Shown: piece after piece, positions 16,330 through 35,320 of the stretch | Position numbering within the stretch: the first letter of the stretch is position 1 | Layout: each line of letters opens with the position of its first letter | Assembly: GCA_900470775.1 (NCBI GenBank) | Contig: UCBZ01000027.1 | Span: 1 to 64,000 of the forward strand | Origin: Hyphomicrobiales bacterium | Lineage (GTDB): Bacteria > Pseudomonadota > Alphaproteobacteria > Rhizobiales > Beijerinckiaceae | Direction of reading: 5' to 3' | DNA: 64,000 nt | Notes under the pieces: model-generated | Database searches by the model: none | What the model was told of the DNA's origin: nothing | The model's input: the letters and a program-made list of their open reading frames with translations, nothing else | Made by a program: the position numbers and the translations under genes

Positions 16330-16966
16330 TTGACCACAACTTTCTGTCCACCGCTTCGCTAACGGTCTACCAAATCGCGACGGTAACGCGATTTGGCGGA
16401 CCGCCTGGGCCGATGGTCACGAGCCATCGGTCCAGGCCTTCGCGTCAGGCGCCAGCGGCGCCATACCGGAGCAACGCGGCCGATGACGACGTGCCTCGGA
16501 GATCGACGCAGATACCACGCCGACGTCCTTGTTCGCGCGGGCCCGGTCGCAAGGGCCGATTGGCGATTGGTCGACGGCTCAACTCAGCGTGACGTCCACT
16601 CCCATTCGACTGCTCCTGGGATTTGCGCTGCACGTCGCTGCAGCGACCGGAGCGTTCGGTCAACACGCGTCGCTCAGGTGCTGGAAATCATAAGTCGTCA
16701 TGGCTTGCTCCGAAGATCGTGACTTGCCGTGCGTTCTCATTCGCTGTTCAACAAAAGTCGGATGATGCAGCTCACTCGTGGCAAGTCTTGCCCGATACCG
16801 TCACACGCTATCAGCAGCGACTGCGGCGATCGCCGTCAGGCGTCGTCATCCTTTCCGTTAACGGTGCTTCGCTGTCAGACGCAGTGGATAGCAGCTGGCA
16901 CGAAGACAGGGCTCGATAATCAATCGCAGCGATCTCAGGGACGAGCGTGACACCGCTCGATATGTG
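16330..16966. other. Intergenic stretch before selD
   Basis: Frames are open here but none has a recognisable domain, a good ribosome-binding site or consistent codon use. It may be decayed coding DNA. The promoter of selD should lie in its last part. Confidence 0.4.
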
Positions 16967-18016
16967 ATGAAAAGCATGTCGCCACGCCTGACAAGCCTCG
17001 CCCATGGCGGTGGCTGCGGCTGCAAACTGGCCCCCGCCGTGCTACGGGATCTCCTGGCCGGCATGCCGCAGATGGCGCCCTTCAGCCAACTGCTCGTTGG
17101 CTCGGACAAGGCTGACGACGCAGCCGTCTGGCAGATCGATGACAATACCTGCATCATCGCGACGACCGACTTCTTCATGCCGGTGGTCGATGATCCCCGA
17201 GACTTCGGCCGCATCGCCGCCACCAATGCGATTTCCGATATCTATGCCATGGGCGCCAAGCCGATCCTGGCGCTCGCGATCGTGGGTATGCCGATCGACA
17301 AGCTGGAATCTGCGACCATCCGGGCGATCCTTGCGGGGGGTGCCGAAACCTGCGCGAACGCTGGAATTCCGGTTGCTGGTGGGCATTCCATCGATTCGCA
17401 GGAGCCAATCTACGGCCTTGCGGTGATCGGCCTGTGCCACCCCTCCCGGCTGCGGACCAATGCCATGGCCAAGCCAACGAATTCGGTCATCCTGACCAAA
17501 GCGCTCGGCGTGGGCATCTATTCGGCGGCAATCAAGCAGGGGCTCATCGACGGCGAGAGCTACGCCGAGATGATCGCATCTACGACGATGCTGAACCGTG
17601 TCGGCTCCGAGCTCTCGGCAAACTCGGATGTGCATGCACTGACCGACGTCACCGGTTTCGGTCTGCTTGGCCATGCGCTCGAAGTTGCTAGGGCATCTGA
17701 GGTTGCGATCGAAGTTGACGTCGCACGCGTGCCCCTGCTCACGCACGCCTTGGAGTGGGCGAAGCAAGGGATCGTCACCGGCGCGTCAAAGCGCAATTGG
17801 GCAAGCTATGGTGCGGGCGTCGCCTGGCCGGGCGATGCACCGGACTGGCTGCGCCATCTACTGACCGATCCTCAGACGTCAGGCGGGCTGCTCGTGACAT
17901 GCGCTCCCGGAGCCGCAGAAGGCCTCGTCGGGGAGCTTCATGCCAAGGGTTATGCGAGTGCTGCCGTCATCGGCCGTGTCGTGGCTGGAGAGCCGCAGGT
18001 GCGCATCGCGGCTTGA
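16967..18016 (+). CDS. selD: Selenide, water dikinase (selenophosphate synthase)
   Basis: SelD makes selenophosphate from selenide and ATP, the selenium donor for SelA. The 349-aa protein has the N-terminal glycine-rich loop with catalytic Cys and Lys (HGGGCGCKL). Both Cys are TGC, so this is the cysteine form rather than a selenoprotein. Metal and ATP-binding motifs DDAAVW, TTDFF and [15 protein letters not shown] are present, as is the C-terminal [11 protein letters not shown]. It lies convergent to the minus-strand sel/fdh cluster. The ATG at 16967 gives a normal N-terminus; GTG at 16964 and ATG at 16976 are alternatives. Confidence 0.95.
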
Positions 18017-18517: not shown

Positions 18518-20620
18518 TTAGCCCGCACGCGTGAGGCCCTTGATATCTGGCGGAAGAGAATGGGAGTCGAACCCACCTGAGACCGTCTCGCAGCCCCAAC
18601 CGGATTTGAAGTCCGGCCGCCCCACCAGGGACGCTTCTCTTCCAGAAACATTTTCCGCCTGCGTTGTTGCATCATCGGCCGAGACTGCAAAGAGGTCGCG
18701 CCGATGCGGGTTGAGGCGGCGGAGGTCGCTGCGGCGGATCGTGACGCCGTGACGGTCGAAGAACTCCAGGATCTGGATCGCGACCTTGCGGCCGACGGTT
18801 GCGCCAGACGCTGCTTCGAGAGCGTCGCGGAACAGGGCGGCGGTGAACCACCCGCTGGAAACCGTCTCGACGGCAGCAGCGATCTCGACCGCTTCCGCTA
18901 CCGTGTGGCGAGGGAAGAAGTGGTCCTGCGAGACCTCGTGGAGTTCGCCAGCACGACCGATACGCCGGAACAGCTGCCGGATGACGGCCTCGTCTTTGCC
19001 GATCTCGCCGGCAATATCGCGTACGCGTGGCGGGCGAAAGCGCTCGCTGCCTGCGAGACGGTGGCTGAGTTGCAACCAGATCGTCTCTTCCTGGACTGAC
19101 AGCGCGATCTGATGGGAGGAAAGCCGGACCCAGTTGCCCTCGATGACGATCGCGCCTTCGCCGGCAAGGCCGCGCAGAAGCGCGCGGAAAACCGGGGCCG
19201 GAATACGTGCTGCCGTCTGCAGCCGAAGGCGCTCAAGTCCGGTGCCCGCCAGATCAGGATTTTGCTTGTGGAAATTGGCGAGTTCTACCTGCACGGCCGT
19301 ATGAACATCGACGAGGCGGGCGCGCGACAGCACGAGCTGCTGTCGGCCGGTCGTGAAGGTAACTGCGTCGGCAGCCTTCGCCCAACCCTCGGCAGTGACG
19401 CCATCAGCGCCACGGTCCCGCGCGAATTGACTGAGATCGACGGTGCCCGAATTTGCGGTCATCAGAGCGCGAAGAGCGGCGACCGGATCGGTACGGCTGA
19501 GTGCGGCAAGGATAGCGAGCCGTTCCGGTGAGCGGCGCTTGCGCTCTGGCGCGCGCAAATCGAGAAAATCGCCGCCACCCAGCGTATGGTCGGCCGAGAC
19601 GTCGCGCAGCACGAAGCGGTCGCGCGCGCGCGCCGCAATCGGCCGGTCGAGCACGAGCTGAACCAGCGTCTCGTCGCCAGGCTGCGGGCGGTCTTCACCC
19701 AACAGTACAATGCGGGCGCCGATTTCGGCTGTGGCGTGGTGCAGGCGGGCCGGCATCCATTGCTGCAACCCCTTGGCCGCGCCGGGCGCGGTGGTAAGGC
19801 GCGCGTCGATGCGCTGTGTCGGATCATGCGCGCCCACCGCGAGCACCATCTCGCCGCGACGGATCGCATCTTTCTCGATCTGCGGGCCGGACAGGTTGAG
19901 GGCGCAACGCTCTCCGGCGCGGCCACGCTCGGCCTTGCGGTTCTGGGCGTGGATCGAACGCACTCGAGCCGAGAGCCCGGCCGGCGAAACGACGACCTCG
20001 TCGCCGACAGCAATCTCGCCATCCAGCACCATGCCGGTCACCACCACGCCGGCGCCCTGCAGGGTGAAGCACCGGTCAACTGAGAGCCGGAACTGGCGCT
20101 CGCCGCTGCGCGCGGCGAGGCGCTCGCTTTCGGCATCGAGCGCGGCGGTGAGGTCTGCCAGGCCTTCGCCCGTCACGCTGGATACCGGCAGGATAGGCGT
20201 AACCGCAAGCCGTGTTCCGGCGAGCCAGTCGGTGATTTCACCCGCTGCCTCAATGCGACGCTCCTGCGGGACCGCGTCTATCTTGGTCAGCGCGACCAGC
20301 ATGCGCTCGATCCCGAGCAACTCGATGATCTCGAGATGCTCGAGCGTCTGCGGCATGATGCCGTCATCGGCCGCTATGACGAGCAGCACGAGGTCTAGCG
20401 CCTGCGTGCCGGCTAGCATGGTCTGGAGGAAGCGCTCGTGGCCGGGCACATCGACGAAGCCGGTGATCCCTCCGCCGGGGCGGGGCCAGTAGGCGAAGCC
20501 GAGATCGATGGTGATCCCGCGCTCCTTCTCCTCCTTGAGCCGATCGGCGTCGACGCCCGTCAACGCCTTAACCAGCGAGGTCTTGCCATGGTCGATATGC
20601 CCGGCCGTGCCGATGATCAT
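18518..20620 (-). CDS. selB: Selenocysteine-specific elongation factor SelB
   Basis: SelB is the GTPase that carries Sec-tRNA to UGA codons by binding the SECIS hairpin. The 700-aa protein has the G1 loop [19 protein letters not shown], the [13 protein letters not shown] switch, DVPGHERFL (G3) and TKID (G4). Elongation-factor beta-barrels and C-terminal winged-helix domains that bind mRNA follow. The start shares an ATGA with the Sel1-repeat gene (20617-20620). The reading frame has no stop before 18518, so its last 42 codons run through selC. The true family C-terminus probably lies near the FAVSADD segment. Confidence 0.95.
18548..18643 (-). tRNA. selC: tRNA-Sec (UCA anticodon)
   Basis: The minus strand folds as a long tRNA of 93 nt plus encoded CCA. 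The acceptor arm pairs GGAAGAGA with TCTCTTCC. The anticodon loop CTTCAAA contains TCA (complement of 18607-18609). A long extra arm and a GGTTCGACTCCC T-loop follow. An extended acceptor stem, long variable arm and UCA anticodon are the marks of selenocysteine tRNA. It lies inside the 3' end of the selB reading frame. It reads the UGA codon of fdnG at 28955-28957. Confidence 0.95.
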
Positions 20621-21438
20621 GACGGAAAGCCCATCTCGACGCGGCTAGCGAATTCCTGCGCTTTCTCGAAGGCGCTGGCCGGAAGGCTCGCCTTGACCGC
20701 ATTGTAGAAGGTGGCGGCGAGAAGAGAACCGCGCTGCTGGGCCATGATCAACAGGACCATGGCGCGTAGAGGGTCGGGTTCCAAACCTTGCCCGAGATGG
20801 TTGGCGGCGCCCAGCATCGCCATGGCATCGGCATCGCCGGCGGCGACACCGCGCGCCCACCAGTTCGCGGCCTCGGTCGCGTCGCGCTCCACGCCCAGCG
20901 CATTATGGTAGAGCATGCCCATGCGGGTCATGGCGCTGCCGATGCCCGCCTCGGCTGCGGCCTGCGCCCATTGCCGCGCCTCGAAAGCGTGGACATAGGC
21001 GTCCTCCTGCTCCAGCAACATCCAGGAGAGCATGTCCTGGGCCTGGGCGTCGCCGGCGCGCGCGGCCATGCGATACCAGTCGAGCGCCAGCGCATCGTCC
21101 TGATTGACACCCTGGCCCTGCAGATAGGCAGCGGCGAGATTGCGCTGGCCAGCGGCGTCGCCCGCCTCTGCAGCCACGCTCAGCCAGCGCGTGGCGAGCG
21201 CAGGATCGGCATCGACGCCGAGCCCACCCATGAAGCAGGCACCGACATTGTTGGCGGCGCGCGCGATGCCCTGATGCGCCAGCGGGCCCCAGACCGCCAG
21301 CGCCTCGCGATAATCGCCCCGTTCGGCCAGCATCTTCGCCTGGGCGAGCAACTCATCAGTGCTCGCAGTCGGCTCGGGGGGCGGGGCGGCAGACGATCTG
21401 AGACGTGCGGCTTTTCGGCGCAACAGCGAGAAGATCAT
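20617..21438 (-). CDS. Sel1-repeat (TPR-like) protein between selA and selB
   Basis: This 273-aa protein has a basic N-terminus ([10 protein letters not shown]) and then about five or six Sel1-type repeats (residues 40-235). Examples are [40 protein letters not shown] and [19 protein letters not shown]. Such repeats form helical scaffolds for protein contacts. It shares an ATGA with selA upstream (21435-21438) and another with selB downstream, so it is translationally coupled on both sides. No signal peptide is clear. A chaperone or scaffold role for SelA, SelB or Sec-tRNA is inference from the coupling alone. Confidence 0.85.
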
Positions 21439-22877
21439 GCGGCCCGCTCCTTCAGCGCGGGGAGCTGGGCGAGGAAGCCGGTCTCATCCGTCAGACAGCG
21501 CAGGTCCAGAAGGAGGGCGTTGTCGTTAATCCGTCCGATCACCGGGATCGGCAGTGCTCGCAGCGAAGCCGCGAGCCGGTCGAGCGCCTGGCCCTTGCGC
21601 TTGCTCGTCGGCACGGCCGCGAGCGCGGCACTCGGCAGTGTGTCCACCGGCATCGCACCCGAGCCGATCTGGCTGGCGCAGTTACGTCGCTCGGCCGCGA
21701 AACCCTCGGGGAGGGCGGCTTGCCATGCCGTGAGCAGACGCTCGGCTTGGGCCCGGATTTCATCTTGCGTCCGGCTGAAGAAATGCAGTGTCGGCAGACG
21801 CTGCGCCAGCCGATCAGGATCGCGATAGAGCTTTAGCACGGCCTCAAGCGCAGCCAACCTGATCTTGTCGAGGCGCAGGGTGCGCTTGAGATGGTTCTTG
21901 GCGCAGGGCCGCACCAAATCCTTGCGCCCGACGATAAAGCCACATTGCGGCCCGCCGAGCAGCTTGTCGCCGGAGAAGGTGACGAGATCGGCGCCGTCCT
22001 TCAACGCATCCTGCACAGTGCGCTCGCGTTTCAGGCCCCAGCGCGAGAGATCGACCAGCGTGCCTGAGCCGAGGTCGTCGATGAAGGCGATGCGGCTCGC
22101 GCTTGCCAGCGCGGCGAGGTGCTTCGGCTCGACCTCGGCGGTGAAGCCCTGGATCGCGTAGTTCGAGGTATGGGCCTTGAGGATCGCGCCGGTCTCTCCC
22201 GAGATGGCCTCCTCGAAATCGCGCAGATGGGTGCGGTTGGTGGTGCCGACCTCGTGGAGTCTTGCTCCGGCGCGCTTCATGATCTCGGGCAGGCGGAAGG
22301 CGCCGCCGATCTCGATCAACTCGCCGCGCGAGACGATGGCCTCCTTGCCGGAGGCATGCGTCGCCAGCGTGAGCAGCACGGCAGCCGCGTTGTTGTTGAC
22401 GAGGCAGGCATCCTCGGCGCCGGTCAGTTCGCATATGAGCCCGCGGACATGATCGTCGCGCTCCCCTCGCGCTCCGCCATCGAGGGCAAATTCGAGCGAG
22501 GTCGGGTGGCGCATCGCGTTGACCACGGCCTCGACGGCTTCCTCCGGCAGGACGGCACGGCCGAGATTGGTGTGCAGAACAGTACCGGTCAAGTTAAAGA
22601 CCCGACGCTGCGAGGGCATGCTGGCGGCCTCGAGCATGGTAACGGCCTCAGTAGCCACCGCCTGCACATCCGGTAGTGCGATCTCACTTGCCAACCGCTC
22701 CCGCCAGCGATGCAATGCCCCGCGGATCGCATTGCTGGTGGCAGTATGGCCGAAGCGGTCGATGGCCGAGCGCCCTGCCTGACTTTGCAGGACACGGTCG
22801 ACGGATGGCAGCCGCTGAAGCTCTTCGGTGTTATGACGCACCTGCGATACCGTTCCAGAATTGCGCGCGCCAGACAT
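21435..22877 (-). CDS. selA: L-seryl-tRNA(Sec) selenium transferase
   Basis: SelA is the PLP enzyme that converts seryl-tRNA(Sec) to selenocysteinyl-tRNA(Sec) using selenophosphate. The 480-aa length is normal. It shows RVFNLTGTVLHTNLGRAVLP near residue 100, VNNNAAAVLLTL, FIDDLGSGTLVDL and the PLP-lysine region TFSGDKLLGGPQCGFIVG. It is downstream of fdhD (76 bp gap) and coupled to the Sel1-repeat gene. The unstructured first residues and the ATG at 22877 fit the family. Confidence 0.96.
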   Translation of the reverse strand: MSGARNSGTVSQVRHNTEELQRLPSVDRVLQSQAGRSAIDRFGHTATSNAIRGALHRWRERLASEIALPDVQAVATEAVTMLEAASMPSQRRVFNLTGTVLHTNLGRAVLPEEAVEAVVNAMRHPTSLEFALDGGARGERDDHVRGLICELTGAEDACLVNNNAAAVLLTLATHASGKEAIVSRGELIEIGGAFRLPEIMKRAGARLHEVGTTNRTHLRDFEEAISGETGAILKAHTSNYAIQGFTAEVEPKHLAALASASRIAFIDDLGSGTLVDLSRWGLKRERTVQDALKDGADLVTFSGDKLLGGPQCGFIVGRKDLVRPCAKNHLKRTLRLDKIRLAALEAVLKLYRDPDRLAQRLPTLHFFSRTQDEIRAQAERLLTAWQAALPEGFAAERRNCASQIGSGAMPVDTLPSAALAAVPTSKRKGQALDRLAASLRALPIPVIGRINDNALLLDLRCLTDETGFLAQLPALKERAA

Positions 22878-22953: not shown

Positions 22954-23796
22954 CTAAAATAGAATGCAATCTTGATAGGTGAAGACGTCGAAGCCATCGT
23001 CGCGCGCAATTGCGGCGAGCGTGATGCCCGCCTGTTCCGCGCTCGTGACAGCCAGAGTGGTCGGTGGGGAAATCGCGACGATGACCGACGCACTCATCAC
23101 GGCAGCTTTTTGGACCATCTCGACAGAGACACGGCTGATTAGCAGGATCGCACCGCTGCTTGCGTCAACTCCATCGCGGGCCAGCGCGCCGGCCAGCTTA
23201 TCAAGGGCGTTGTGACGGCCGACGTCCTCACGCACCAGAGACGCCCTTGCATCCCACCACCCGTCAGCGTGAGCCGCACGCGTCATCTCATGCAGCGGTT
23301 GCAGGCGCGCAAACTCTCCCATCGCCGAGAGCAGCCCGCTTGCTACAAATCGAACTGTTGATCGCACCCGCGGCCGGGGCCGAGATGCTGCTGCGAGGCT
23401 TTCTACGCCGCACAGACCACAACCGACTGGGCCGGCGATGACACGTCGACGGGCCATGTGAGACGCAGTATGCGCGCTGGCCAGCCAGATCCGAACATCG
23501 ATGCCCTGCTGTGAACAATGGACATCGATATCCCGGATTTGATCGGTTCGCTCAATCAGACCTTCTGCCAGAGAGAACCCGATGGCAAAGTCTTCGAGGT
23601 CTTGCGACGTCGCCATCATGACGGCGTAAGTCGACCCATCGAAGGAGAGGGCAATCGCGGATTCCATGGCCAACATCCGCTGGCCAGCCTGCAGGGCACC
23701 GTTGCGCCACGAAAGCTGGCTGTGGCCACCCGAGGCAGCCGACAAACCGATGATTGGCTCTTCCGGCTCAATCTGTCCGATCGCAGCGCAGGACAT
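22954..23796 (-). CDS. fdhD: Formate dehydrogenase accessory sulfurtransferase FdhD (copy 1)
   Basis: FdhD moves sulfur from IscS to the molybdenum cofactor of formate dehydrogenase. The 280-aa protein has the catalytic loop GPVGCGLCGVESL (Cys126, Cys129) and the conserved VREDVGRHNALDKLAG and SRVSVEMVQKAA motifs. The ATG at 23796 lies 1 nt after the fdhE stop, so the two are coupled. A second FdhD is encoded at 45921-46733; the two share most motifs. This copy is clearly dedicated to the FdnGHI enzyme beside it. Confidence 0.95.
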   Translation of the reverse strand: MSCAAIGQIEPEEPIIGLSAASGGHSQLSWRNGALQAGQRMLAMESAIALSFDGSTYAVMMATSQDLEDFAIGFSLAEGLIERTDQIRDIDVHCSQQGIDVRIWLASAHTASHMARRRVIAGPVGCGLCGVESLAAASRPRPRVRSTVRFVASGLLSAMGEFARLQPLHEMTRAAHADGWWDARASLVREDVGRHNALDKLAGALARDGVDASSGAILLISRVSVEMVQKAAVMSASVIVAISPPTTLAVTSAEQAGITLAAIARDDGFDVFTYQDCILF

Positions 23797-23797
23797 C

Positions 23798-24721
23798 TCA
23801 ATAGCTCAGCAGGAAGGGATTGAACGCCGCTCGTCGATAAGGGCCTTTGCTCATCAGCATGTCGAGGGCCAACGTCCCGATGTCGTCGGCAACAGGGTCA
23901 ATGGTAAGGTCCTTGTTTTGGTACATGACCTTCACATAGGTCCGGCACTCGTCACATGTTTCGGCCTTGATCGTGCCGTTGCCACCTTCAATTTCCTGGT
24001 ACCCGATGCCCTTGGTGGTGCCGCAGGAGCAACAGCGGACGCGGACGTAATACCATAGCGTCGCGCAGAGTGAGCAGACGCAGAAGCGGCTGCCATGGGC
24101 ATTCACCCACTCAACGATCACCGATGCGACCGGTGCACCGCCGCAAGAGGGGCAGACGCCGTCACCGACCGGGACGAGGGTTGTGGCGTCAAGCTGCGAC
24201 GCCAGGCGCACCAAATGAACCTGCAGGCCGGCCGCGATATAGCTGTGTTCGGCGAGTTCATCGAGCGAGAGGGCATTGTCGAGCACGTCGCGCACCATCC
24301 GTTCACGCTGCGTGATGTCGCAATGCGCGACCCGCTCCAACGCCTCAGCCGCTGGGACTGGCATGTCGATGGATGAAAGGTTGTCGAAGAGCCGATCGAG
24401 CGTCGTCGTGAGCGCATCGTCAACCGTGATCCTGGCGCGGTCGATCTGCGGCAGGCCGAAGGTTGCAGCCTGCGCGGCGTCGTCCGCATCCCTCATAGCC
24501 ACGATCGGGAGGCCAGGAATAATCGTCAGCTGGGCATCGGTCACTGCTGCGACGAATTCGAGATAGGGCTTCATCGGACTGACTTGCGCATAGGTTCTCA
24601 GCCGTTTCGCGCGGGCTGCGAAGATAGCATCCGGCTTCGGCAGGACCGCGAATGGCGGTTCCGAAACTTCCCCGATCGCTGTCGGGTCAGCCTTGATTTC
24701 GCTCGGCGTTACTCTGGCCAT
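23798..24721 (-). CDS. fdhE: Formate dehydrogenase accessory protein FdhE
   Basis: FdhE is a rubredoxin-like iron protein needed for maturation of respiratory formate dehydrogenases. The 307-aa sequence has the four CxxC pairs: CPSCGGAP, CSLCATLW, CCSCGTTKG and CDECRTY. It ends in a family-like LTIDPVADDIGTLALDMLM. It sits between fdnI and fdhD on the same strand with gaps of 9 and 1 bp. E. coli FdhE interacts with the Tat-bearing catalytic subunit, which fits the Tat signal on FdnG here. Confidence 0.94.
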   Translation of the reverse strand: MARVTPSEIKADPTAIGEVSEPPFAVLPKPDAIFAARAKRLRTYAQVSPMKPYLEFVAAVTDAQLTIIPGLPIVAMRDADDAAQAATFGLPQIDRARITVDDALTTTLDRLFDNLSSIDMPVPAAEALERVAHCDITQRERMVRDVLDNALSLDELAEHSYIAAGLQVHLVRLASQLDATTLVPVGDGVCPSCGGAPVASVIVEWVNAHGSRFCVCSLCATLWYYVRVRCCSCGTTKGIGYQEIEGGNGTIKAETCDECRTYVKVMYQNKDLTIDPVADDIGTLALDMLMSKGPYRRAAFNPFLLSY

Positions 24722-24730
24722 GTCGATCTC

Positions 24731-25492
24731 TCAGCTTGGTCGGCGCGGCGATGACGATGGACCGGTGGCGGAATGAGGATGGGGAATTTCGGCGGCTTTG
24801 CTACCATCGACCTTCACCACCAGTTCACGCAGCCATTTGCGATGATGCCGCCAGGCCCAGCCGCCCGTGACCACCCCATGTGTCATGGCGCTGAAGGTGC
24901 CCTTCACCCAGATGGCCGCGTAGACGTGGATGATCCAGACGCAGATGGCGAAGATGGCGGCCAGCGCGTGGGCGAGCACGGCGAGGCGTTTGACCTCGAT
25001 CGTCGTGAAGGGCGAAAAATACTGGTCCCAAATAACGATCCCGGTGCTGATCAAGACGAGGATCAGCGCCGACATCGACCAGAAGACAAACTTTTGGCCA
25101 GCATTATATTTGCCGAGCTCGGGCAGGTCGTCGTCGCGATTGCGGAGCACGTCGCCGATCTTGGCCAGCCATGTACGGTCGGCCTGAACGGGCAAGTTCG
25201 CGCGCCAGAACCGAACGAACAGCAGCGAGAACGAGAAGAAGAGGACGAGCCCGATCCACGGGTGGATCGTTCGTGTCCACTGTCCTCCACTAAACAGGCC
25301 GGTCAGGAAGAACAGATTGGGCGTAAACAGGGACATCCCCGACACCGCCAGCAGGATCAGGCTTGCCGCAGTAATCCAATGGTTGATCCGCGCTGCTGCT
25401 TTGTAGCGATGAACCTGCACGGGGTGCGTGCCGCTGACGGCATCGCCAGATTGGATATCGGCGGGGGCGCCATGTTCCCGGGGCGCCGTCAC
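24731..25492 (-). CDS. fdnI: Formate dehydrogenase gamma subunit (cytochrome b556)
   Basis: This 253-aa membrane subunit takes electrons from the beta subunit and reduces quinone. Four hydrophobic segments are visible, with haem-ligand candidates in AARINHWITAASLILLAVSG, RTIHPWIGLVLFF and LAHALAAIFAICVWIIHVYA. The start shares an ATGA with the fdnH stop (25489-25492). The basic, proline-rich C-terminus is short. FdnI and FdoI cannot be told apart here, so the symbol is by convention. Confidence 0.93.
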   Translation of the reverse strand: MTAPREHGAPADIQSGDAVSGTHPVQVHRYKAAARINHWITAASLILLAVSGMSLFTPNLFFLTGLFSGGQWTRTIHPWIGLVLFFSFSLLFVRFWRANLPVQADRTWLAKIGDVLRNRDDDLPELGKYNAGQKFVFWSMSALILVLISTGIVIWDQYFSPFTTIEVKRLAVLAHALAAIFAICVWIIHVYAAIWVKGTFSAMTHGVVTGGWAWRHHRKWLRELVVKVDGSKAAEIPHPHSATGPSSSPRRPS

Positions 25493-26457
25493 GCGTGACC
25501 TCGCGGCGGCTGGAGGTCACGTCCGGTTGCCAGGCTCCCGGCGCTGTCCTCATCTTCTTCGGTCACCTTGTTGGGGCCTGCCACCGCATAATGCGCAAGT
25601 CCTGCCAAGGCGGCGGCTCCCATTAGGGCCATGCCGAAATATTTGGTCACACCCTTCCAGACTTTCACGACCCGCGAGATGCTCGGATCGTCCGGCAAGC
25701 CGGCATAGAGCGAAGGTTTGTCGGCATGGTGCAGCACATACATGACATGGGTACCGCCGACACCAGGCGGATCATAGAGGCCGGCGTGCTCGAAGCCGCG
25801 CGATTTCAGGTCCTTGATGCGGAATTCGGCCCAGGCCTTCATCTCATCTTTGGTGCCAAAGACAATCGCCTGCGTCGGGCACGCCTTCTGGCAGGCGGGG
25901 CCCTGTCCGACCGCGATACGATCCGAGCATAGGGTGCATTTGTAGGCCGTATGATCGGTTTTGGAGATGCGCGGAATGTTGAAGGGGCAACCCTTGATGC
26001 AATAGCCGCAGCCGATGCAGTTTTCGTGGAAGAAGTCGACGATCCCGTTCGAATACTGGACGATTGCGCCGGGCGATGGGCACGCCTTCAGGCAGCCCGG
26101 ATCGGCGCAATGCATGCAGCCATCCTTGCGGATCAGCCACTCGAGGTGACCGGACTCGGGATTATCCCATTCGGTGAAGCGCATCAGCGTGAAGGTGTTG
26201 GGCGTCAGGTCCATGGGGTTATCGTACACCCCGTGGTTGTATCCGATGTCCTCATGCAGGTTGTTCCATTCAAGGCATGCGGACTGGCATGCCTTGCAAC
26301 CAATGCACTTGGTGACGTCGATGAGTTTTGCGATTTCAGTCAGTCGCGTGGTCGGCAGCGCGACCTCCGAGGCGGAGCGACGAACGAGGTCGCGCTCGCT
26401 GAAGCGGGGGCGTGAAGCCTCCCCGGCGACCGACGCATTCGGGATGGGTGGGAACAT
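25489..26457 (-). CDS. fdnH: Formate dehydrogenase iron-sulfur (beta) subunit
   Basis: This 322-aa electron-transfer subunit has four cysteine clusters for [4Fe-4S] centres: CIGCKACQSAC, CMHCADPGCLKAC, CIGCGYCIKGC and CTLCSDRIAVGQGPACQKAC. A C-terminal membrane helix (YFGMALMGAAALAGLAHYAV) anchors it to the membrane. It carries electrons from the molybdenum subunit to the cytochrome b. It lies between fdnG and fdnI, 10 bp after the fdnG stop and overlapping the fdnI start. Confidence 0.95.
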   Translation of the reverse strand: MFPPIPNASVAGEASRPRFSERDLVRRSASEVALPTTRLTEIAKLIDVTKCIGCKACQSACLEWNNLHEDIGYNHGVYDNPMDLTPNTFTLMRFTEWDNPESGHLEWLIRKDGCMHCADPGCLKACPSPGAIVQYSNGIVDFFHENCIGCGYCIKGCPFNIPRISKTDHTAYKCTLCSDRIAVGQGPACQKACPTQAIVFGTKDEMKAWAEFRIKDLKSRGFEHAGLYDPPGVGGTHVMYVLHHADKPSLYAGLPDDPSISRVVKVWKGVTKYFGMALMGAAALAGLAHYAVAGPNKVTEEDEDSAGSLATGRDLQPPRGHA

Positions 26458-26467
26458 GCGTGCCTCC

Positions 26468-29400
26468 TTAAGCGACCGGGCCGGAGGAAGATTCGATATT
26501 GACCATGAAAGCCTTAAATTCCGGGGTCTCTATATTCGCATCACCGACGAAGGGCGTGAGAACATTGGCCGGAAAGCCCTTGCGAGCCGCGCCGACGAAC
26601 CCCCAGTGAATCGGAATTCCGACGATATGGACGGTCTTGCCGTCGCAGATCATCGGTTTGATCCGCTTGGTGACGACAGCCTTGGCGAAGAGCTCGCCGC
26701 GCATCGACCAGACGCGCACCCAGCCGCCCTTGACAATACCCTTCTCCTCAGCGAGTTCGACCGAAATCTCGACAAAGGATTCCGGCTGAAGGACCGCGTT
26801 CACATGGTTGTTCTTGGTCCAGTAGTGAAAGTGTTCGGTCAGCCGATAGGACGTTGCCGCATAGGGAAACGCTGGGCTCCCGATATCCGCGAACTGCTTC
26901 CAGTCATCGGCGAAGACACGCGAGGCCGGGTTGCCGCGAATCTTCGGCGCTACTGGGTTGAGGATAGGGCTCTCGAACGGCTCGTAATGCGTAGGGAAAG
27001 GGCCATCGCGCATCATTCCGCGCACGAAGAGACGACCAACGCCCTCGGCGTTCATGATGTAGGGTCCGACATCGCGTGGCTTGGCCGTGGGTGCAATGTC
27101 GGGCACGTCGTAGCCGCTCCACTTTGCACCATCCCATTCGAGCAGCTTGCGAGAGGGATCCCAAGGCTTGCCATCGAGATCGCATGAGGCGCGGTTGTAG
27201 AGAATGCGGCGGTTCGCGGGCCACGCAAACGACCAGTTCAAATACATGCCGGTGTCATCCGGGTCGGAATTGTCCCGACGCGCCATCATGTTTCCGGCTT
27301 CTGTGAAACTGCCGGCAAAGATCCAGCAGCCTCCGGCAGTGCTGCCGTCGTCCTGATAATCACCGAAGCCAGACAGCTGTTTTCCGCGCTGGAACACCTT
27401 GCGCGACGGATTGGCCGGGTCTGCGACATCAGCAAGCGCGTAGCCGTTCATCTCCTTGGCCAGCTCTTCTGGCGTCGGCTCGCCCGGATCCGCATAGGAC
27501 CAGTTCAGGTTGAGGATCGGATCGGGAAAAGCTCCGCCTTCCTTGCGATAAAGTTCGCGTAGCCGCACGAAAATCTGCGCCATGATCCAGGCGTCCGTGT
27601 GCGCCTCGCCGGGAGGCGTTCCACCTGACCAATGCCACTGAAGCCAGCGCCCTGAATTGACCAGCGAACCTTCGTCCTCGGCAAAGCAGGTGGTGGGAAA
27701 CTGGATGACCTCCGTCTTGATCTTGGCGGTAGCGGCATCGTTGTAGAGGCCATGATTTTCCCAAAACCGGGCCGTCTCGGTCTGCAGCGGATCCATCACG
27801 ACCAGCAGTTTGAGTTTCGACAGCCCTTCCGCAAGCTTGGCCTTGTTGGGGAACGCCTGAAGCGGATTGAACCCCTGGCAGAAATAGAGGTTCATCTTGC
27901 CCTGCTTCATAAGCTCGAAGGCTCGCAGGATGTCGTAGTTCCCGACATCGAGCTTGGGCAGGTAGTCATAGGCCCAGTCATTTTCCAACGTCGCGGCCGA
28001 GCCGTACATGGCCTTCATGAGGCTGACGAAGAACTTGCGGTAGTTCTGCCAGTAACTTGTCTGTCCCGGCCGCAGCGGCTTGTACGCGCGCGTCGACATG
28101 TAGCGGTCGAAGCTGGTTTCGCTGTCGACGGGCAGGTTCATGTATCCTGGCAGCATGTTCGACAGAAGCCCGATATCGGTGAGACCCTGAATGTTCGAAT
28201 GGCCGCGAAGCGCATTCATGCCACCACCGCGAATACCGATATTGCCAAGGATCAGCTGGAGCATCGCCATCGTGCGGATGTTCTGGGCGCCCTTGGAATG
28301 TTGCGTCCAGCCGAGCGCATACATGGAGGTCATCGCCTTGGTTGGCGAGGAGCACTCGGCGATCATCTGCGCCACCGTCAGGAACTTGTCCTTGGGCGTC
28401 CCACAGATGCGCTCGACCATCTCCGTCGTGTACTGCGCGACGTGCTGTTTTAGCAGATTCCAGACGCAACGCGGATGTTGCAGCGTCTCGTCCACAAGCG
28501 CATAGCCGTCGGGACCGACCTGGTACTCCCAGGTCTCGTTGTCGTAGTCGCGCTTGCTCTCGTCATAGCCGCTGAACAGGCCGTCCGCGTACTCGAAGCC
28601 GTCCTTCACAAGGTAGGACGCGTTGGTGAACGTCTTCGTGTAGTCCCACTGCACCTTGTCGTTGGCGATGCAGTAATTGATCACGCCGAGCAGGAAAGCG
28701 ATATCGGTGCCCTGCCGGATAGGCGCATAGTAGTCGGCGACCGACGCCGAGCGCGTGAAACGCGGATCGACGACAATCAGCTTTGCACCGCGATTGGCCT
28801 TGGCCTCAGTGACCCATTTGAAGCCGCATGGGTGCGCCTCGGCTGCATTACCGCCCATGATAACGACGAGGTCAGTGTTCTTGATGTCCGTCCAGGGGTT
28901 GGTCATCGCACCGCGACCAAATGTTGGGGCGAGACTCGCCACCGTCGGTCCGTGTCAGACCCGGGCTTGATTGTCGAAGGCCAGAATCCCGGTACTGCGG
29001 ACCACCTTGTAGGTCGCGTATGCGGTCTCGTTCGTGGTCGCTGACGCTGCTAGGAACCCGGTCGTCAACCACCTGTTAACTGTCGTCCCGTCCGCGTTCT
29101 TGGCGATGAAGTTAGCGTCGCGATCGTCCTTCATGGCTCGGGCGATCTTGTCAAGCGCGACCTCCCAAGCGACAGGCACGAATTTATCGGAACCCGGCTT
29201 GCGGAGCATGGGCTGGGTCAGCCGCGTCGCGGATTTCACGATGTCGCGCAGTGCCGCACCCTTCGGGCATAGTGTCCCGCGATTGGTCGGATGATCCGCA
29301 TCCCCCTCGATGTGGACGATGTCCGCGTGTTCACCCTTCCTGATATCGCCCTTGGAATAGATGATGATGCCGCAAGCGACTGAACAATACGTGCAGGTAT

Positions 29401-29551
29401 TGCGCGTCTCGGTCGTATTCACGAGGTGGAAAGGCTTCACAGCCGCGACCATCGCAGCCTGGACCTCGGTGAAACCGAAGGCTCCCAACGTCGTTCCTGC
29501 AATTCCTGCCGAAGACGTTCGGAGGAAATCCCTCCGGGAAATGCCTGACAT
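26468..29551 (-). CDS. fdnG: Formate dehydrogenase catalytic (alpha) subunit, selenoprotein with Sec199
   Basis: This molybdenum/selenocysteine enzyme oxidises formate to CO2. It is 1027 aa when the in-frame TGA at 28955-28957 is read as selenocysteine. The Tat signal is SRRDFLRTSSAG at the start. The [4Fe-4S] cysteines are 53, 56, 60 and 95 (CTYCSVAC, LCPKG). The Sec site reads NQARV-U-HGPTVASLAPTFG, the same context as E. coli FdnG/FdoG (Sec196). A conventional gene caller would split it at 28955. The complete Sec machinery downstream supports the decoding. The Tat signal places the active site in the periplasm. Confidence 0.96.
28928..28957 (-). promoter_or_regulatory. UGA selenocysteine codon and bacterial SECIS hairpin
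   Basis: Directly after the TGA (28957-28955) the mRNA can form a perfect hairpin, GGCGA-GTC-TCGCC, at 28940-28928. It begins 14 nt past the codon, with GU in the apical part, as in the E. coli fdhF and fdnG SECIS. It is the likely SelB binding site. Confidence 0.85.
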
Positions 29552-30105
29552 TTCGCGGGTCTCCTATTCTTGCAAAGCGTCAAACAATGGCGATCCAGCA
29601 CCGCGCCCAACCGACTGATCTGGCACGCCCATTCGGACGCTTCTGTGGAATTATTCGATTGTGCGACTCTATCACTGGCTGGGCATCAATAAATCAGCTG
29701 AACGCACATGCCGGCACTATGTACGTATGGATTGACCATACGAGTGTATAGGTGGGCCTTTCCTCCATCTTCCTTTAAAATGTTCCTGTCGGCTCTCAAT
29801 GGAATAGACCGAGCTCGCCCTTGGCTGCGCCTCTTTGCTTGGGTGGGCCAGGAGCGCTTCGCCTGATCTGATGGGAAGCCGATGCGAAGCTCACCAGCAA
29901 GTTTGGACGCGTGAGCGCCCGCGGATCCGCTTTGGAGCAATCTATTATGTAAGGGCACTCCCGAAACCACACAGACCGAGTGATTACGGAAGTAAACGAA
30001 CGTATAGGCAGTACATTCAAGTGTGACATGCCTATTTATCCCTAATGAAGTGATGATCTTCAACGGGTTGTGGTCTTGCTCAACCCCACCATTAGGAGAT
30101 TTCGA
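29552..30105. other. Divergent promoter region between fdnG and the oxalate decarboxylase
   Basis: About 550 bp carries no supported gene. It must contain the promoters of both divergent operons. A hairpin GGGTTG...CAACCC at 30065-30086 lies just before the ribosome-binding site of the oxalate decarboxylase gene. Confidence 0.5.
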
Positions 30106-31272
30106 ATGTCGGACGTATCACGTCGAGGGCTCGTGGGGTCTTTAGCATTCGCAGGGCTCCTTGGATCTATCTCGAATGAAGCTCAAGCTGGCGACGCCAG
30201 CTTTCAGAACAACGTGCCCGATCACGTACTGGCTGGCGCCGAGCTTCCTACCTTCAAATTCGAACTCGAAAAGACAGAAGGCAAGGTCATCGGAAATAGC
30301 TTCGGCAAGGAAGCAACGGTTGAGCAATTGCCGATTTCGAAGGGCATTGCCGGTGTTTCAATGAGACTTGAGCCCGGCGCCATGCGCGAGCTTCACTGGC
30401 ATGCGACGGCCGCGGAATGGGCCTTCGTTCACGAGGGCCGGGTTCGGACGACGGTCATCGATCCACAGGGCAATTCGGAAACCAACGACTTTGAGGCAGG
30501 CGATGTCTGGTATTTTCCCCGAGGCCACGGGCACATGCTCGAAGCGCTCGGAAACAGCCCCGCACATTTCATTCTGATTTTCGACAATGGCTATTTCTCG
30601 GAATTCGGGACCTTTAGCATCACGGACTGGGTCGGACATGTCCCGAAGTCCCTGCTCGCCAAGAACTTTGGCGTCCCCGAAAGCGCATTCGACGGTTTTC
30701 CGCAGAGCGAGGTATACTTTGCTCGCGGAGCAATACCGCCGCAAACACCGGCTGCGCCCTTGCAGGGGAATAAATGGCCGCCCGTGACTCACAAATACGC
30801 CCTGCTGTCGCAGGAACCGCACCGCATCTTCAAAGGAGGGCGAGAGTGGCGCGTCGATTCGACCAAATTCCCGATTTCAAAGACGGTCACGGGCGTTGTG
30901 CTGGAGCTCGATCCCGGTGCGCTGCGCGAGTTGCATTGGCATCCCTCAGCCGACGAGTGGCAGTATGTTCTCGAGGGCGAGGTCAGCGTGACGCTTTTTG
31001 GCTCGCACGGGCGCTTCAGGACCGAGACTCTTTCCAAGGGCGACGTTGGGTACATTCCACAGGGCTACGGTCACTCGATCGAAAACATAGGGCCAGGAAA
31101 AGCTCGCGTGCTGATCGGCTTCAATTCGGGCGTGTACGAGGCGATCGATTTGTCGCAATGGATCGCGGGCAATCCCCTCGACGTCCTGGCAACCAACTTT
31201 GGCAAGCCGGACAGTCTTTTCAAGCGTTTTCCGAAGCAGGACGTTTTCATTGCCGACAAGACCGCGCCCTGA
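30106..31272 (+). CDS. oxdC: Oxalate decarboxylase (bicupin), Tat-exported
   Basis: This 388-aa bicupin would split oxalate into formate and CO2 at Mn sites. Both cupin domains keep the four ligands: His97, His99, Glu104, His143 (RELHWHATAAEW, RGHGHM) and His277, His279, Glu284, His323 (RELHWHPSADEW, QGYGHS). The N-terminal lid reads SEFGT (165-169) in place of the SENST of Bacillus OxdC, but the key Glu is kept. The start SRRGLVGSLAFAGLLG is a Tat signal, so it acts outside the cytoplasm. The ATG at 30106 has TTAGGAGA upstream. It is divergent from the formate dehydrogenase that could use its product. Oxalate oxidase activity cannot be excluded. Confidence 0.9.
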   Translation: MSDVSRRGLVGSLAFAGLLGSISNEAQAGDASFQNNVPDHVLAGAELPTFKFELEKTEGKVIGNSFGKEATVEQLPISKGIAGVSMRLEPGAMRELHWHATAAEWAFVHEGRVRTTVIDPQGNSETNDFEAGDVWYFPRGHGHMLEALGNSPAHFILIFDNGYFSEFGTFSITDWVGHVPKSLLAKNFGVPESAFDGFPQSEVYFARGAIPPQTPAAPLQGNKWPPVTHKYALLSQEPHRIFKGGREWRVDSTKFPISKTVTGVVLELDPGALRELHWHPSADEWQYVLEGEVSVTLFGSHGRFRTETLSKGDVGYIPQGYGHSIENIGPGKARVLIGFNSGVYEAIDLSQWIAGNPLDVLATNFGKPDSLFKRFPKQDVFIADKTAP

Positions 31273-31420: not shown

Positions 31421-31978
31421 GTGATTCCTTATGTGTTTTCCGGGGCTCGGGGCACGATCCATACTAGGCTTAGCCAAGCCGTAGTCTGGTGTATGGGATT
31501 TTCATTGGCGGCATTGCTCGACGGTAGCGTGTTGGCGGCACCTGCAACATTGAAGCCATGGGCGGCGCGAAGCGAACCGACGTTGACGCTTGATCGTCTC
31601 GATGGCCCAGCCATGAGTTTGGCGGAGCTTCGCGGCAAGCCCGTTATCGTCCATTTCTTCGCAACGTGGTGCGCACCTTGCATTGAAGAAATAGCATCAC
31701 TCAATGCCTTAGCGTCGGCATGGCCCGATGCGCCAGCTATCGTTGTCGTCAGCGTCGGCGAGATCGACGCCCGAGTTCGAAATTTCTTCCGGGATCGCCC
31801 GCCGGCCTTTGTCGTGTTGATGGACCGTGATCGCGCCGCGATGACCACCTGGAAGGTCGCCGGGCTTCCGACGAGCTTCGTTCTCGATCGTCACCTCAGT
31901 TCGGTTTTTGTGGCGGAAGAGGCCGTCGATTGGGCCAGCCCCTTAGTCGTCGAGGCGCTGAAGAACCATGTGCCTTGA
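31421..31978 (+). CDS. TlpA-like periplasmic thioredoxin
   Basis: This 185-aa protein has an N-terminal membrane or signal segment (VVWCMGFSLAALL) followed by a TlpA/ResA-type thioredoxin domain. The active site is FFATWCAPCIEE (Cys84, Cys87) and the cis-Pro loop is VAGLPTSFV. Such proteins reduce disulphides in the periplasm or help metal-site assembly. It lies 148 bp after the oxalate decarboxylase and 51 bp before the transglutaminase-like gene, all on the same strand. Its partner is unknown; the neighbouring exported proteins are candidates. Confidence 0.88.
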   Translation: MIPYVFSGARGTIHTRLSQAVVWCMGFSLAALLDGSVLAAPATLKPWAARSEPTLTLDRLDGPAMSLAELRGKPVIVHFFATWCAPCIEEIASLNALASAWPDAPAIVVVSVGEIDARVRNFFRDRPPAFVVLMDRDRAAMTTWKVAGLPTSFVLDRHLSSVFVAEEAVDWASPLVVEALKNHVP

Positions 31979-32029: not shown

Positions 32030-33127
32030 ATGATCAGCCGCCGTCAGCTCTTGAAGACAACTGCGGCAGCCGCCGCGGCTGTATCGGCTCCGCGTCTCGC
32101 TACCGCTCAGGCAAGCACGTTTGCGCCCAAACCAGGCGCATGGCGGACCTTTGAAGTGACCACCCGGTTAGATCTTGCGACCGGTGACAGGACGCAGGCA
32201 TGGATACCTCTTCCCTCCATCCATCAGGATCTGTGGGTGAAGCCGGGTAAGAGCACCTGGCGAGGCAATGCGCGCTCGGCTGAAATTGTGCGCGACCCGA
32301 AGTATGGGGCTGAATTCTTGCACGTTAAATTCAAGGATGGTGAAGGCGCTCCCAGTATCGAAGTCAGCAGCCGCATCTCGTTACGGGATCGCGCCTTGGA
32401 CTTGAGTTCAAAGCGGCCCGTGGCGGCGCTGCGCATTGCAGAACAGAGGCTTTACCTTGAGCCGACGCAGTTGATGCCAACCGACGGAATCGTTCGGCAA
32501 ACCGCTGAAGATGCTGCAGCAGGCAGGCTGACCGACCTTGAGCGCGCTCACGCCGTCTATGAATGGGTCGTTGCCAACACGTTCCGCGATGCAAGCACGC
32601 GCGGCTGCGGAACCGGTGACGTTGCATCGATGCTCCGTACTGGAAATCTTGGCGGCAAATGTGCCGACCTCAATGCTCTTTATGTCGCGCTCGTGCGGAG
32701 CATCGGCATCCCCGCGCGAGACATCTACGGCGTTCGTGTCGCTCCTTCCCAGTTCGGATACAAGAGCCTTGGTGCAGGCTCGGATAACGTCACCAAAGCT
32801 CAGCACTGCCGGGCTGAGGTCTGGTTGGACGGCTACGGATGGGTGGCAACAGATCCAGCTGATGTCCGCAAGGTCGTGCTCGAGGAGCCGCCCGGCAACA
32901 ACGCAGTCCATGACGAAAAGGTCGTCGCCGTTCGCCGCGCACTGTTTGGTGCCTGGGAAGGAAATTGGCTTGCCTATAACGTTGCACATGACCTGCAGTT
33001 GCCAGATTCGACACACACGGTGCCGTTCTTGATGTACCCTCAGGCGGAGACAGCCGGCGCTTTGCTCGACTGTCTTGATCCTAGCAATTTCAAGTACTCG
33101 ATCAGTTCGCGAGAGGTTTCTGCCTAA
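32030..33127 (+). CDS. Tat-exported transglutaminase-like protein
   Basis: This 365-aa protein has a Tat signal (ISRRQLLKTTAAAAAAVSA) followed by a transglutaminase-like (papain-fold) domain. The expected triad is visible: Cys211 in GNLGGKCADLNALYVALVR, His259 in KAQHCRAEVWL and Asp275 in GWVATDPADVR. Bacterial members of this group are usually proteases or amidases rather than cross-linkers. It follows a TlpA-like gene and an oxalate decarboxylase, and the three may be one transcript. Its role next to oxalate metabolism is not obvious. Confidence 0.87.
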   Translation: MISRRQLLKTTAAAAAAVSAPRLATAQASTFAPKPGAWRTFEVTTRLDLATGDRTQAWIPLPSIHQDLWVKPGKSTWRGNARSAEIVRDPKYGAEFLHVKFKDGEGAPSIEVSSRISLRDRALDLSSKRPVAALRIAEQRLYLEPTQLMPTDGIVRQTAEDAAAGRLTDLERAHAVYEWVVANTFRDASTRGCGTGDVASMLRTGNLGGKCADLNALYVALVRSIGIPARDIYGVRVAPSQFGYKSLGAGSDNVTKAQHCRAEVWLDGYGWVATDPADVRKVVLEEPPGNNAVHDEKVVAVRRALFGAWEGNWLAYNVAHDLQLPDSTHTVPFLMYPQAETAGALLDCLDPSNFKYSISSREVSA

Positions 33128-33283: not shown

Positions 33284-34734
33284 GAGCTTGTCCGAGTAAT
33301 GTTCTGGACGGCGCTTTGACTGAGTGAATCACTCATTTGATGGGCAAGACATTTCGTTCGTGGGATGTGGATCAGGGCTGGCTTTTGCCGGCCTCGGACC
33401 ATGATTTTGTGGCGCCGGATCATCTGGCGCATTTTGTCCGGGACACCGTGCGCGAGGGCCTCGACCTCACAGCCATCCTTGATGCCTATACCGAAGAGCG
33501 CGGCTTCCCGCCCTACCATCCCGGCATGATGGTGGCGCTGCTGCTCTACGGCTACAGCCGGCGCCTCTACTCCTCGCGCCAGCTCGCCCGCGCTTGCGAG
33601 GAGCGGGTCGATGTCATGGCCGTCACTGGGCTGAACCGCCCCGATTTCCGGACCATCTCGGACTTCCGCAAGCGCCACCTCGTGGCCCTGTCGGATCTGT
33701 TCGTGCAGGTGCTGCGCCTGTGCCGGACGGCGGGCCTGGTGCAGTTCGGACATGTTGCGGTCGACGGGACCAAGCTGAAGGCCAACGCCTCGCGCCACAA
33801 GGCGATGAGCTATGGCCGGATGAAGACGACCGAGCCGGCGCTCGCCGCCGAAGTCGCGAACTGGCTGGCTCGCGCGAACGAGATCGACGCGGCCGAGGAT
33901 CGTGAGCACGGCGAGAACCGGCGCGGCGACGAGATGCCGGGCTGGATGGCCGACAAGCAGCGCCGGCTGGAGGCGATCCGCGCCGCCAGAGCCACGCTCG
34001 AAGCGGAAGCCACCGATCCGCCCGATCCCGATGACGAGAGCGGCCTGGGGCGTCATCGGGCATGCGCTGGCAAGGTCGTCCCTTGCGGAGCGAGGACGGC
34101 GGGCCGCCGGACCGTGCGCAGAAGAACTTCAGCGATCCCGACAGCCGCATCTTGCCGACGCGGGACGGCTTCATCCAGGGCTATAACGGCCAGATCGCGG
34201 TCGATGCGGCCCATCAGGTGATCGTGGCGCATCGGCTCGTGACGACCTCGGCCGATTATCGCGCACTCATACCGCTTGTGGACGATATTCCGGTTCATCT
34301 CGGACGCAAGCCGCGTGAGGTCTCCGGCGATGCCGGTTTTGCCACCGAGGCGAACCTGGCGGCGATGAAGGAGCGAAAGATCAAGGCCTATCTGCCGCCG
34401 GGCCGGGCCCGCCATGGCGAGGTGCACGCCGCAGGGCGCCGCAAGCTCACGAAGATGCCACTGATGAGCGAAATGGCGGAAACCCTCCGCCGTGCCGGTC
34501 GACGCAGTCGCTACCGTCTACGCAAACAGGTGGTCGAGCCCGTCTTCGGACAGATCAAACAGGCAAGAGGCTTCCGACAGTTCCTGTTGCGCGGCCTCGA
34601 TCAGGTTCGGGGCGAATGGGCCATGATCTGCACCGCCCACAACCTCCTCAAGCTCGCGAAGGCAAGGACTTGAACCCATCGCGGTACAAAATCCCAGCCG
34701 ATGAAGCCCAAGATTGCTTACTCGGACAGGCTCG
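33284..34734 (+). mobile_element. IS1182-family insertion sequence
   Basis: The ends are inverted repeats: GAGCTTGTCCGAGTAA at 33284-33299, and its near-perfect complement at 34719-34734 (one mismatch in 16). The element is about 1.45 kb with one frameshifted transposase gene. On its right it interrupts an IS481-type transposase. The left flank is different DNA, so the insertion was followed by rearrangement or deletion. Confidence 0.85.
33337..34673 (+). pseudogene. IS1182-family transposase, frameshifted
   Basis: The N-terminal part (33337 onward) begins MGKTFRSWDVDQGWLLP and carries the DUF772-type domain and the first catalytic Asp region (VAVDGTKLKANASRHK). Around 34045-34065 a -1 shift is needed to join it to the C-terminal part. 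That part reads RWQGRPLRSEDGGPPDRAQK, NFSDPDSRI, then GYNGQIAVDAAHQVIVAH and QVVEPVFGQIKQARGFRQF. The two halves together make a normal-length IS1182 transposase. Either the gene is broken or the shift is programmed; no classic slippery run is visible, so breakage is more likely. Confidence 0.85.
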
Positions 34735-35320
34735 TAGGTGTTTGGTCCCAGGATGAAGTGACGCGGGTCGATCTTGAAGGGTGATGGGTCTTTCGTCCAT
34801 GCCTGACAGATGGCCTCGTATGGCGTTCGCCATCGCAGGGCCTTCAGATGCTTGGCGACGTTGTAGGCGGCGACGAAGGCCACGACATGGGCCTTCAAGC
34901 TCTCGAGATCGGGGTAGTGGAAGACCTTGGTCGTCGCATCCTTGATCGTGCGGTTCATCCGCTCGGCCTGGCCATTCGTCCAAGGGTGGTAGGGCTTGGT
35001 CAGCTTGTGCTCGATGCCGTTGGCGAGGCAGAGGCGGTCGAACATGTGCGGCCCCCACTGCCGGGAGATCCCGTTGCGGTTCTTCGGCAGGTCGGCGAAG
35101 GCCATCCCGTTGTCGGTCAGAACCGTGTGGATCGCATAGGGGAACGCCGCGATCACATTCTCCAGGAAAGCAGTCCCGTTCAGCATCTTGGTGCGATCGT
35201 GGAACTCGACATAGGTGAACTTCGAGACGCGATCGATCGCCAGGAACATGTGTCGCTTGCCGTCAGCCAAACGCAGCTCGCAGTGATCGATATGGACATA
35301 ACCGCGGCAGCCATGGCGCG
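34735..35320 (-). pseudogene. IS481-type transposase, truncated at both ends
   Basis: On the minus strand the sequence runs from HGCRGYVHIDHCELRLADGK through FLAIDRVSKFTYVEFHDRT, VLTDNGMAF (second catalytic Asp) and PWTNGQAERMNRTIKD (Glu) to DPRHFILGPNT. It then runs straight into the IS1182 end. The N-terminal DNA-binding part is missing beyond about 35320. A shorter piece of the same transposase is at 4531-4737. Confidence 0.85.

Follow-up and report, generated by a model that had tools for sequence, protein, structure and literature searches.

A divergent gene pair in a 64,000-nucleotide stretch of DNA from a Hyphomicrobiales bacterium (GenBank assembly GCA_900470775.1, contig UCBZ01000027.1, positions 1 to 64,000; hereafter the window) raises the question of whether oxalate may be respired outside the cytoplasm. 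One gene, oxdC, encodes a bicupin of the oxalate decarboxylase family and the other, fdnG, the selenocysteine-containing alpha subunit of a formate dehydrogenase-N (FDH-N). Oxalate decarboxylase consumes a proton as it cleaves oxalate to formate and CO2, and FDH-N oxidises formate to CO2, passing two electrons to quinone. The best explanation of the locus as a whole, to which we assign a probability a little under even, is that an OxdC exported by the twin-arginine translocation (Tat) system would feed formate to FDH-N, its gene having been captured into the FDH-N island.

The identities, leaders, active-site residues and order of the genes involved are established. OxdC scores above the cut-off of TIGR03404 bicupin_oxalic (341.1 versus 254.2 bits), is the sole OxdC of its genome and begins with a twin-arginine leader, MSDVSRRGLVGSLAFAGLLG; the feature that marks a Tat-exported, MncA-like oxalate decarboxylase is present as SRRGLVGSLAFAGLLG, an assignment made by motif alone. 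The best-matching solved structures are MncA/Sll1358 (2vqa; E 2.3e-96), followed by Bacillus subtilis OxdC (E 4.4e-81). All eight metal ligands are kept (H97, H99, E104 and H143; H277, H279, E284 and H323), as are R94 and R274, which correspond to Arg92 and Arg270 of B. subtilis numbering. The lid reads SEFGT at residues 165-169, and its Glu166 and Thr169 (Glu162 and Thr165 in B. subtilis) are invariant across an eight-row alignment. The position of Glu333 in the C-terminal site (B. subtilis numbering) is occupied by Ile337; since this residue is variable in nearly all non-Terrabacteria OxdC, according to a portion of PMC10192776, it is not a defining feature outside that group. Tat-type leaders are common among OxdC relatives, and MncA is described in part of PMC11742986 as a Tat-exported, manganese-dependent oxalate decarboxylase; oxalate decarboxylases of the exported type are thus already known. 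That same part does not tie MncA to a formate dehydrogenase. A first-pass annotation, made from the letters of the window, had predicted a Tat-type oxalate decarboxylase at this position, and the family match, residues and leader agree with it.

The divergent genes encode a complete FDH-N of the FdnGHI/FdoGHI type, with three subunits above their NCBIfam cut-offs, a selenocysteine codon accompanied by a SECIS element, and a Tat leader, MSGISRRDFLRTSSAG, on FdnG. The single in-frame TGA of fdnG, at codon 199, is read as selenocysteine. The start codons of oxdC and fdnG lie about 550 bp apart, and oxdC is followed on its own strand by tlpA after 148 bp and, a further 51 bp downstream of tlpA, by a transglutaminase-like gene. 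Thus, the Tat-exported selenoprotein formate dehydrogenase with beta and cytochrome b subunits (TIGR01553, TIGR01582, TIGR01583, SECIS_3 and leader) and the divergent oxalate decarboxylase gene of the first-pass annotation were both recovered. Its placement of both active sites outside the cytoplasm is likely to be right as well; Tat export of OxdC and FdnG is read from their twin-arginine leaders alone, and an excerpt of PMC3160892 places the catalytic subunits of both Fdh-N and Fdh-O in the periplasm.

From these features we infer OxdC activity, its export and the transfer of formate. OxdC, a manganese-type bicupin, would fold in the cytoplasm and then be exported through Tat, as MncA is. 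Once in the periplasm, it would convert oxalate and a proton into formate and CO2, and FDH-N, its active site facing the same compartment, would oxidise the formate and deliver two electrons to quinone, with neither a transporter nor coenzyme A (CoA) needed. Formate transfer is plausible since both enzymes should share the periplasm, and coupling, whether through the shared compartment or as an evolved association of oxdC with FDH-N, is possible. No description of a periplasmic pairing of oxalate decarboxylase with formate dehydrogenase was found among the titles and abstract openings that literature searches listed. If the explanation is true, oxalate, an acid widespread in plants and fungi, could supply electrons to respiration with no need for transport or activation by CoA, and genome-based prediction of oxalate use would change; the marker genes of surveys of oxalate use are frc, oxc, oxdC and oxlT, as stated in part of PMC10192776. 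The locus also lends itself to a clean experiment on whether genes adjacent in a mobile island are metabolically coupled.

Several results weigh against this explanation. Among 36 relatives of the same genus, FDH-N (~72% identical) occurs in 11, OxdC (E < 1e-70) in six and both in two, which is chance level (1.8 expected, p 0.61); a broken, weak pair with internal stops in G013 (1.3e-17 and 2.3e-17) was left out as an OxdC, as were further weak cupin hits there (E > 1e-8). It is established that oxdC is absent from all 11 FDH-N islands of the genus, compared over ~20 kb each, although fdnG-fdnH-fdnI-fdhE-selA-selB is present in all 11 and the Sel1-repeat gene in 10. In a sample of 398 genomes of the phylum (15 with OxdC and 53 with FDH-N, counting the window's own), co-occurrence does not exceed chance, with FDH-N in four of the 14 other OxdC genomes (p 0.10), and in these four the genes are 766 and 885 kb apart or, in two, on different contigs. 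The genome of the window also encodes an oxalyl-CoA decarboxylase (39139-40800 of contig C63, locus L145; TIGR03254, 1028 versus a cut-off of 739.4 bits). Oxalate is therefore probably also processed in the cytoplasm of this organism, and periplasmic use would add to the cytoplasmic route and not replace it; the first-pass annotation had offered the pairing as an alternative to formyl-CoA:oxalate routes. The GC content at third codon positions (GC3) of oxdC is 0.671, versus 0.63 for tlpA and the transglutaminase-like gene, and being like that of its neighbours it gives no foreign mark. Insertion borders were found neither by DNA comparison with an empty site, which revealed similarity in fdnG coding sequence only, nor by flanking repeats. 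If genes were placed uniformly, an assumption that islands break, at least one of nine lineages would show linkage with a probability of 0.034. B. subtilis OxdC is described, in part of PMC8254039, as a low-pH stress enzyme, which leaves a stress role just as open.

Evidence for coupling comes from beyond the genus. In a class-level sample of 385 genomes, OxdC (E <= 1e-60) is found in five and FDH-N (E <= 1e-200) in 15, own included, and four genomes contain both (own, G207, G337 and G415), which exceeds chance (p 0.00015 without own; 0.003 with the g246 pair counted once). Ten Pseudomonadota genomes besides that of the window were found to have oxdC together with FDH-N. The genes lie within 10 kb in two of them, G337 and G415, both of one alphaproteobacterial genus (g246); they are unlinked in G020 and G022, the two genus relatives with both, where contig extents rule out spacing of 10 kb or less, and by distance in G771 and G797, and they are on different contigs in G207, G707, G740 and G851, the last reached through OxdC locus L070, with both contigs short. 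In g246, oxdC is directly upstream of selA-selB on the same strand, and a selenocysteine fdnG with a twin-arginine leader faces oxdC-selA-selB, 8.5 kb (G337) and 7.2 kb (G415) from oxdC. The g246 OxdCs score above 540 bits with TIGR03404, have Tat-type leaders and belong to a clade well apart from the window OxdC; G337 has a second OxdC elsewhere in its genome. This second and differently built island speaks for metabolic coupling, in a manner that the ~0.03 chance among nine lineages keeps suggestive only. Conserved linkage of oxdC and fdnG, which the first-pass annotation had put forward as its check, was thus mostly negative, and of the respiratory module that it described the parts and likely compartment stand; replacement of the cytoplasmic route is not supported. 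A dedicated oxdC-fdn module is only partly supported. A wider proposition, that exported OxdCs of different clades were recruited at least twice into selenocysteine FDH-N islands of Alphaproteobacteria, giving CoA-free and uptake-free periplasmic oxalate respiration beside the cytoplasmic Oxc route, may be entertained as a speculative and rather unlikely one.

The neighbourhoods of other OxdC genes were compared for the top 80 among 586 confirmed relatives, which are not a random sample, with flanks of up to 10 kb that are often cut by contig ends. No set of neighbours is conserved in the OxdC clade nearest the window, the widest recurring family being present in six loci, and an FDH-N-like match (E <= 1e-100) was found in three (G839, G851 and G862) of the 32 genomes that carry such loci (L055-L087 without L060). 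A molybdoenzyme of the formate dehydrogenase family lies near OxdC in five of the 80 loci: L081, L097, L099, L121 and L129. At four of them, L097, L099 and L129 (by hidden Markov model) and L121 (by similarity), an FdhF/YdeP-family oxidoreductase and FdhD lie near OxdC; the hosts are metagenome-assembled genomes of Melainabacteria/Cyanobacteria and a Flavobacterium, L121 and L129 being from one assembly. This is a different pairing of OxdC with a molybdoenzyme, and the NCBIfam name of YdeP is 'acid resistance putative oxidoreductase'. At L081 (Gemmataceae, OxdC 72% identical), formate dehydrogenase alpha and beta genes lie ~2.4 kb downstream. This does place an OxdC near a formate dehydrogenase, but the locus was not accepted as another instance of the same module; the alpha subunit exceeds the TIGR01553 cut-off (839.5 versus 814.2) yet scores better with NF041513 (1213.1, below the cut-off of 1400), and no twin-arginine leader was seen on its N-terminus as read. 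L059 and L064 were rejected as neighbours of this kind, their molybdoenzymes falling below the TIGR01591 cut-off (496.1 and 330 versus 666.25) and that of L064 being a 363-residue fragment.

The rival that survives best is that OxdC acts alone, in acid stress, oxalate detoxification or local alkalinisation, its adjacency to fdnG being a by-product of gene traffic and its formate being used by any dehydrogenase present. It is a serious contender, though one we would back somewhat short of evenly, and a stress role is nearly as likely as the favoured explanation. The absence of conserved neighbours in the nearest OxdC clade, the scarcity of FDH-N-like matches in its genomes (3/32), the FdhF/YdeP-FdhD neighbourhoods of L097, L099, L129 and L121, and the IS1182- and IS481-type transposase pieces at 33337-35270, which are probably decayed, are all consistent with it; the independently built g246 island argues against it, and formate might also be handled by the YdeP-type neighbours.

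How oxdC came to its position can be read from related islands. The closest fdnG found (82%) belongs to G555, of another family of the order, and faces tlpA-transglutaminase-selD with no oxdC between. On a plasmid of Terrarubrum flagellatum fdnG likewise faces TlpA, transglutaminase and selD without oxdC, on a plasmid of Phyllobacterium zundukense it faces transglutaminase and selD, and in G074 and G207 fdnG is 0.3-0.4 kb from the transglutaminase gene, again on its divergent side. It is TlpA/transglutaminase rather than oxdC that is conserved as the divergent neighbour of fdnG, and in the window oxdC fills the fdnG-tlpA gap, which measures 1.87 kb versus 186 bp in Terrarubrum. Identities divide along the island: FdnG, FdnH, FdnI and FdhE are 82, 81, 71 and 64% identical to those of G555 versus 72, 71, 49 and 43% to those of the genus member G005, while SelA, SelB and transglutaminase are 64, 58 and 74% identical in G005 versus 60, 55 and 60% in G555. 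By these comparisons the window island is a mosaic, with fdn and fdhE nearer G555 and selA, selB and transglutaminase nearer genus members. In the OxdC tree, from which L086 (a fragment) and L110 were left out, the window protein falls in a 13-row clade with Planctomycetota and Bradyrhizobium proteins (support 99/84), and the OxdCs of six genus members are in other clades. An ancestral placement of oxdC beside fdnG was rejected, as the islands of the genus, G555, L160 and L161 lack oxdC. Since the relatives examined mostly lack the pairing, it looks more like a local capture than an established module; in this lineage a mosaic and mobile fdn-sel island would have taken up oxdC between fdnG and the tlpA-transglutaminase genes, and insertion here, rather than loss elsewhere, is what we infer.

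Capture might also have brought a different gain, if oxdC joined the tlpA-transglutaminase transcription unit and benefited from expression timed with FDH-N accessory genes instead of from formate channelling. The common strand, the short gaps to the next two genes, the similar GC3 of all three and the conserved place of tlpA-transglutaminase opposite fdnG fit such an account, which we nevertheless regard as improbable; the single site from a consensus promoter scan is weak, lies inside oxdC and is close to chance, 0.7 such sites being expected. An inverted-repeat scan of the fdnG-oxdC gap gave nothing. Least credible, at a very low probability, is that the bicupin is an oxalate oxidase or a manganese-binding cupin with another substrate, for while the SEFGT lid in place of SENST and the Ile at the Glu333 position would allow it, the bicupin retains all eight metal ligands, both Arg and the Glu and Thr of the lid, MncA, whose lid reads SEGAT, is an active decarboxylase (part of PMC11742986), and Glu333 varies in nearly all OxdC outside the Terrabacteria (portion of PMC10192776).

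The gene that follows FDH-N is the transglutaminase-like one, not oxdC. With the genome of the window left out, it was found (E <= 1e-25) in 26 of 77 FDH-N genomes versus none of 55 without FDH-N (p ~1e-7), the latter being hand-picked Alphaproteobacteria, not a random set, and the same query on the FDH-N set (27/78) serving as positive control. Within Alphaproteobacteria alone the counts are 17/32 versus 0/55. Of the 27 genomes that carry it, own included, 11 have it 10 kb or less from fdnG and one more within 19 kb, and a TlpA-like partner is often beside the Tat-leader protein. No NCBIfam family covers the protein, and PMC5322559, a paper containing the terms transglutaminase-like, selenocysteine and formate dehydrogenase, deals in the relevant part with a different gene in a different organism. 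The exported protein is a possible, hitherto unrecognised accessory factor of FDH-N, a well-studied enzyme, and merits its own study.

Table 1. Genes and RNA elements of the FDH-N island and its surroundings, in window coordinates (scores in bits).
Feature	Coordinates	Strand	Evidence
fdnG, selenocysteine formate dehydrogenase-N alpha	26468-29551	-	TIGR01553 1399.7, cut-off 814.2; twin-arginine leader
SECIS_3 inside fdnG	28902-28960	-	Rfam RF01989 84.1, gathering 63
fdnH, formate dehydrogenase beta, iron-sulfur	25489-26457	-	TIGR01582 465.5, cut-off 334.7
fdnI, formate dehydrogenase gamma, cytochrome b	24731-25492	-	TIGR01583 173.1, cut-off 115.85
fdhE accessory protein	23798-24721	-	TIGR01562 271.4, cut-off 187.65
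fdhD sulfurtransferase	22954-23796	-	TIGR00129 172.7, cut-off 140.9
selA	21435-22877	-	TIGR00474 560.6, cut-off 267.9
Sel1-repeat protein, between selA and selB	20617-21438	-	Pfam Sel1 87.5; position kept in 10/11 genus islands
selB, frame runs through tRNA-Sec gene	18518-20620	-	TIGR00475 399.4, cut-off 242.25
tRNA-Sec, nested in 3' end of selB frame	18548-18643	-	ARAGORN; Rfam RF01852 82.2
selD	16964-18016	+	TIGR00476 414.3, cut-off 125
oxdC, predicted Tat-type exported bicupin oxalate decarboxylase, MncA/OxdC family, 388 aa	30106-31272	+	TIGR03404; leader motif
TlpA-like exported thioredoxin-fold protein, first gene 3' of oxdC	31421-31978	+	Pfam AhpC-TSA, Redoxin; NCBIfam matches all below cut-off
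Tat-leader transglutaminase-like protein	32030-33127	+	Pfam Transglut_core 78.3, TAT_signal 27.4
IS1182-type transposase (two frames) and part of IS481-type transposase	33337-35270		each below NCBIfam cut-off

Compared with known systems, the window FDH-N resembles E. coli FdnGHI/FdoGHI in its three-subunit set, selenocysteine, SECIS and Tat leader, but its genes, unlike those of E. coli, lie within an island with fdhE, fdhD, selA, selB, tRNA-Sec and selD. The same gene set, including tRNA-Sec within selB, a nesting already known for Alphaproteobacteria, characterises their fdoGHI-selABCD islands, such as that on Sinorhizobium meliloti pSymA (as described in part of PMC8124441); among the islands compared, oxdC stands between fdnG and tlpA in the window only, and fdhD, part of the window cluster, gave no match above the search threshold in any of the 11 genus islands. 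The window OxdC shares with MncA (Sll1358 of Synechocystis, PDB 2vqa) a Tat-type leader, the same ligands and a lid with Glu and Thr, the lid sequences being SEGAT in MncA, SEFGT in the window and SENST in B. subtilis OxdC. The latter belongs to the same TIGR03404 family and has the residues of both cupins, but is cytosolic (PMC11742986, in part), whereas the window protein has a Tat leader; the lid and Glu333 position also differ. The bacterial Frc/Oxc route, like the proposed path, ends in formate, yet it is cytoplasmic and requires both oxalate uptake and CoA, of which the proposed path would need neither. Fungal oxalate decarboxylase and formate dehydrogenase likewise convert oxalate through formate to CO2 with a gain of energy (parts of PMC11045627 and PMC3914892), but the fungal dehydrogenase yields NADH and, unlike FDH-N, is not a membrane enzyme that reduces quinone.

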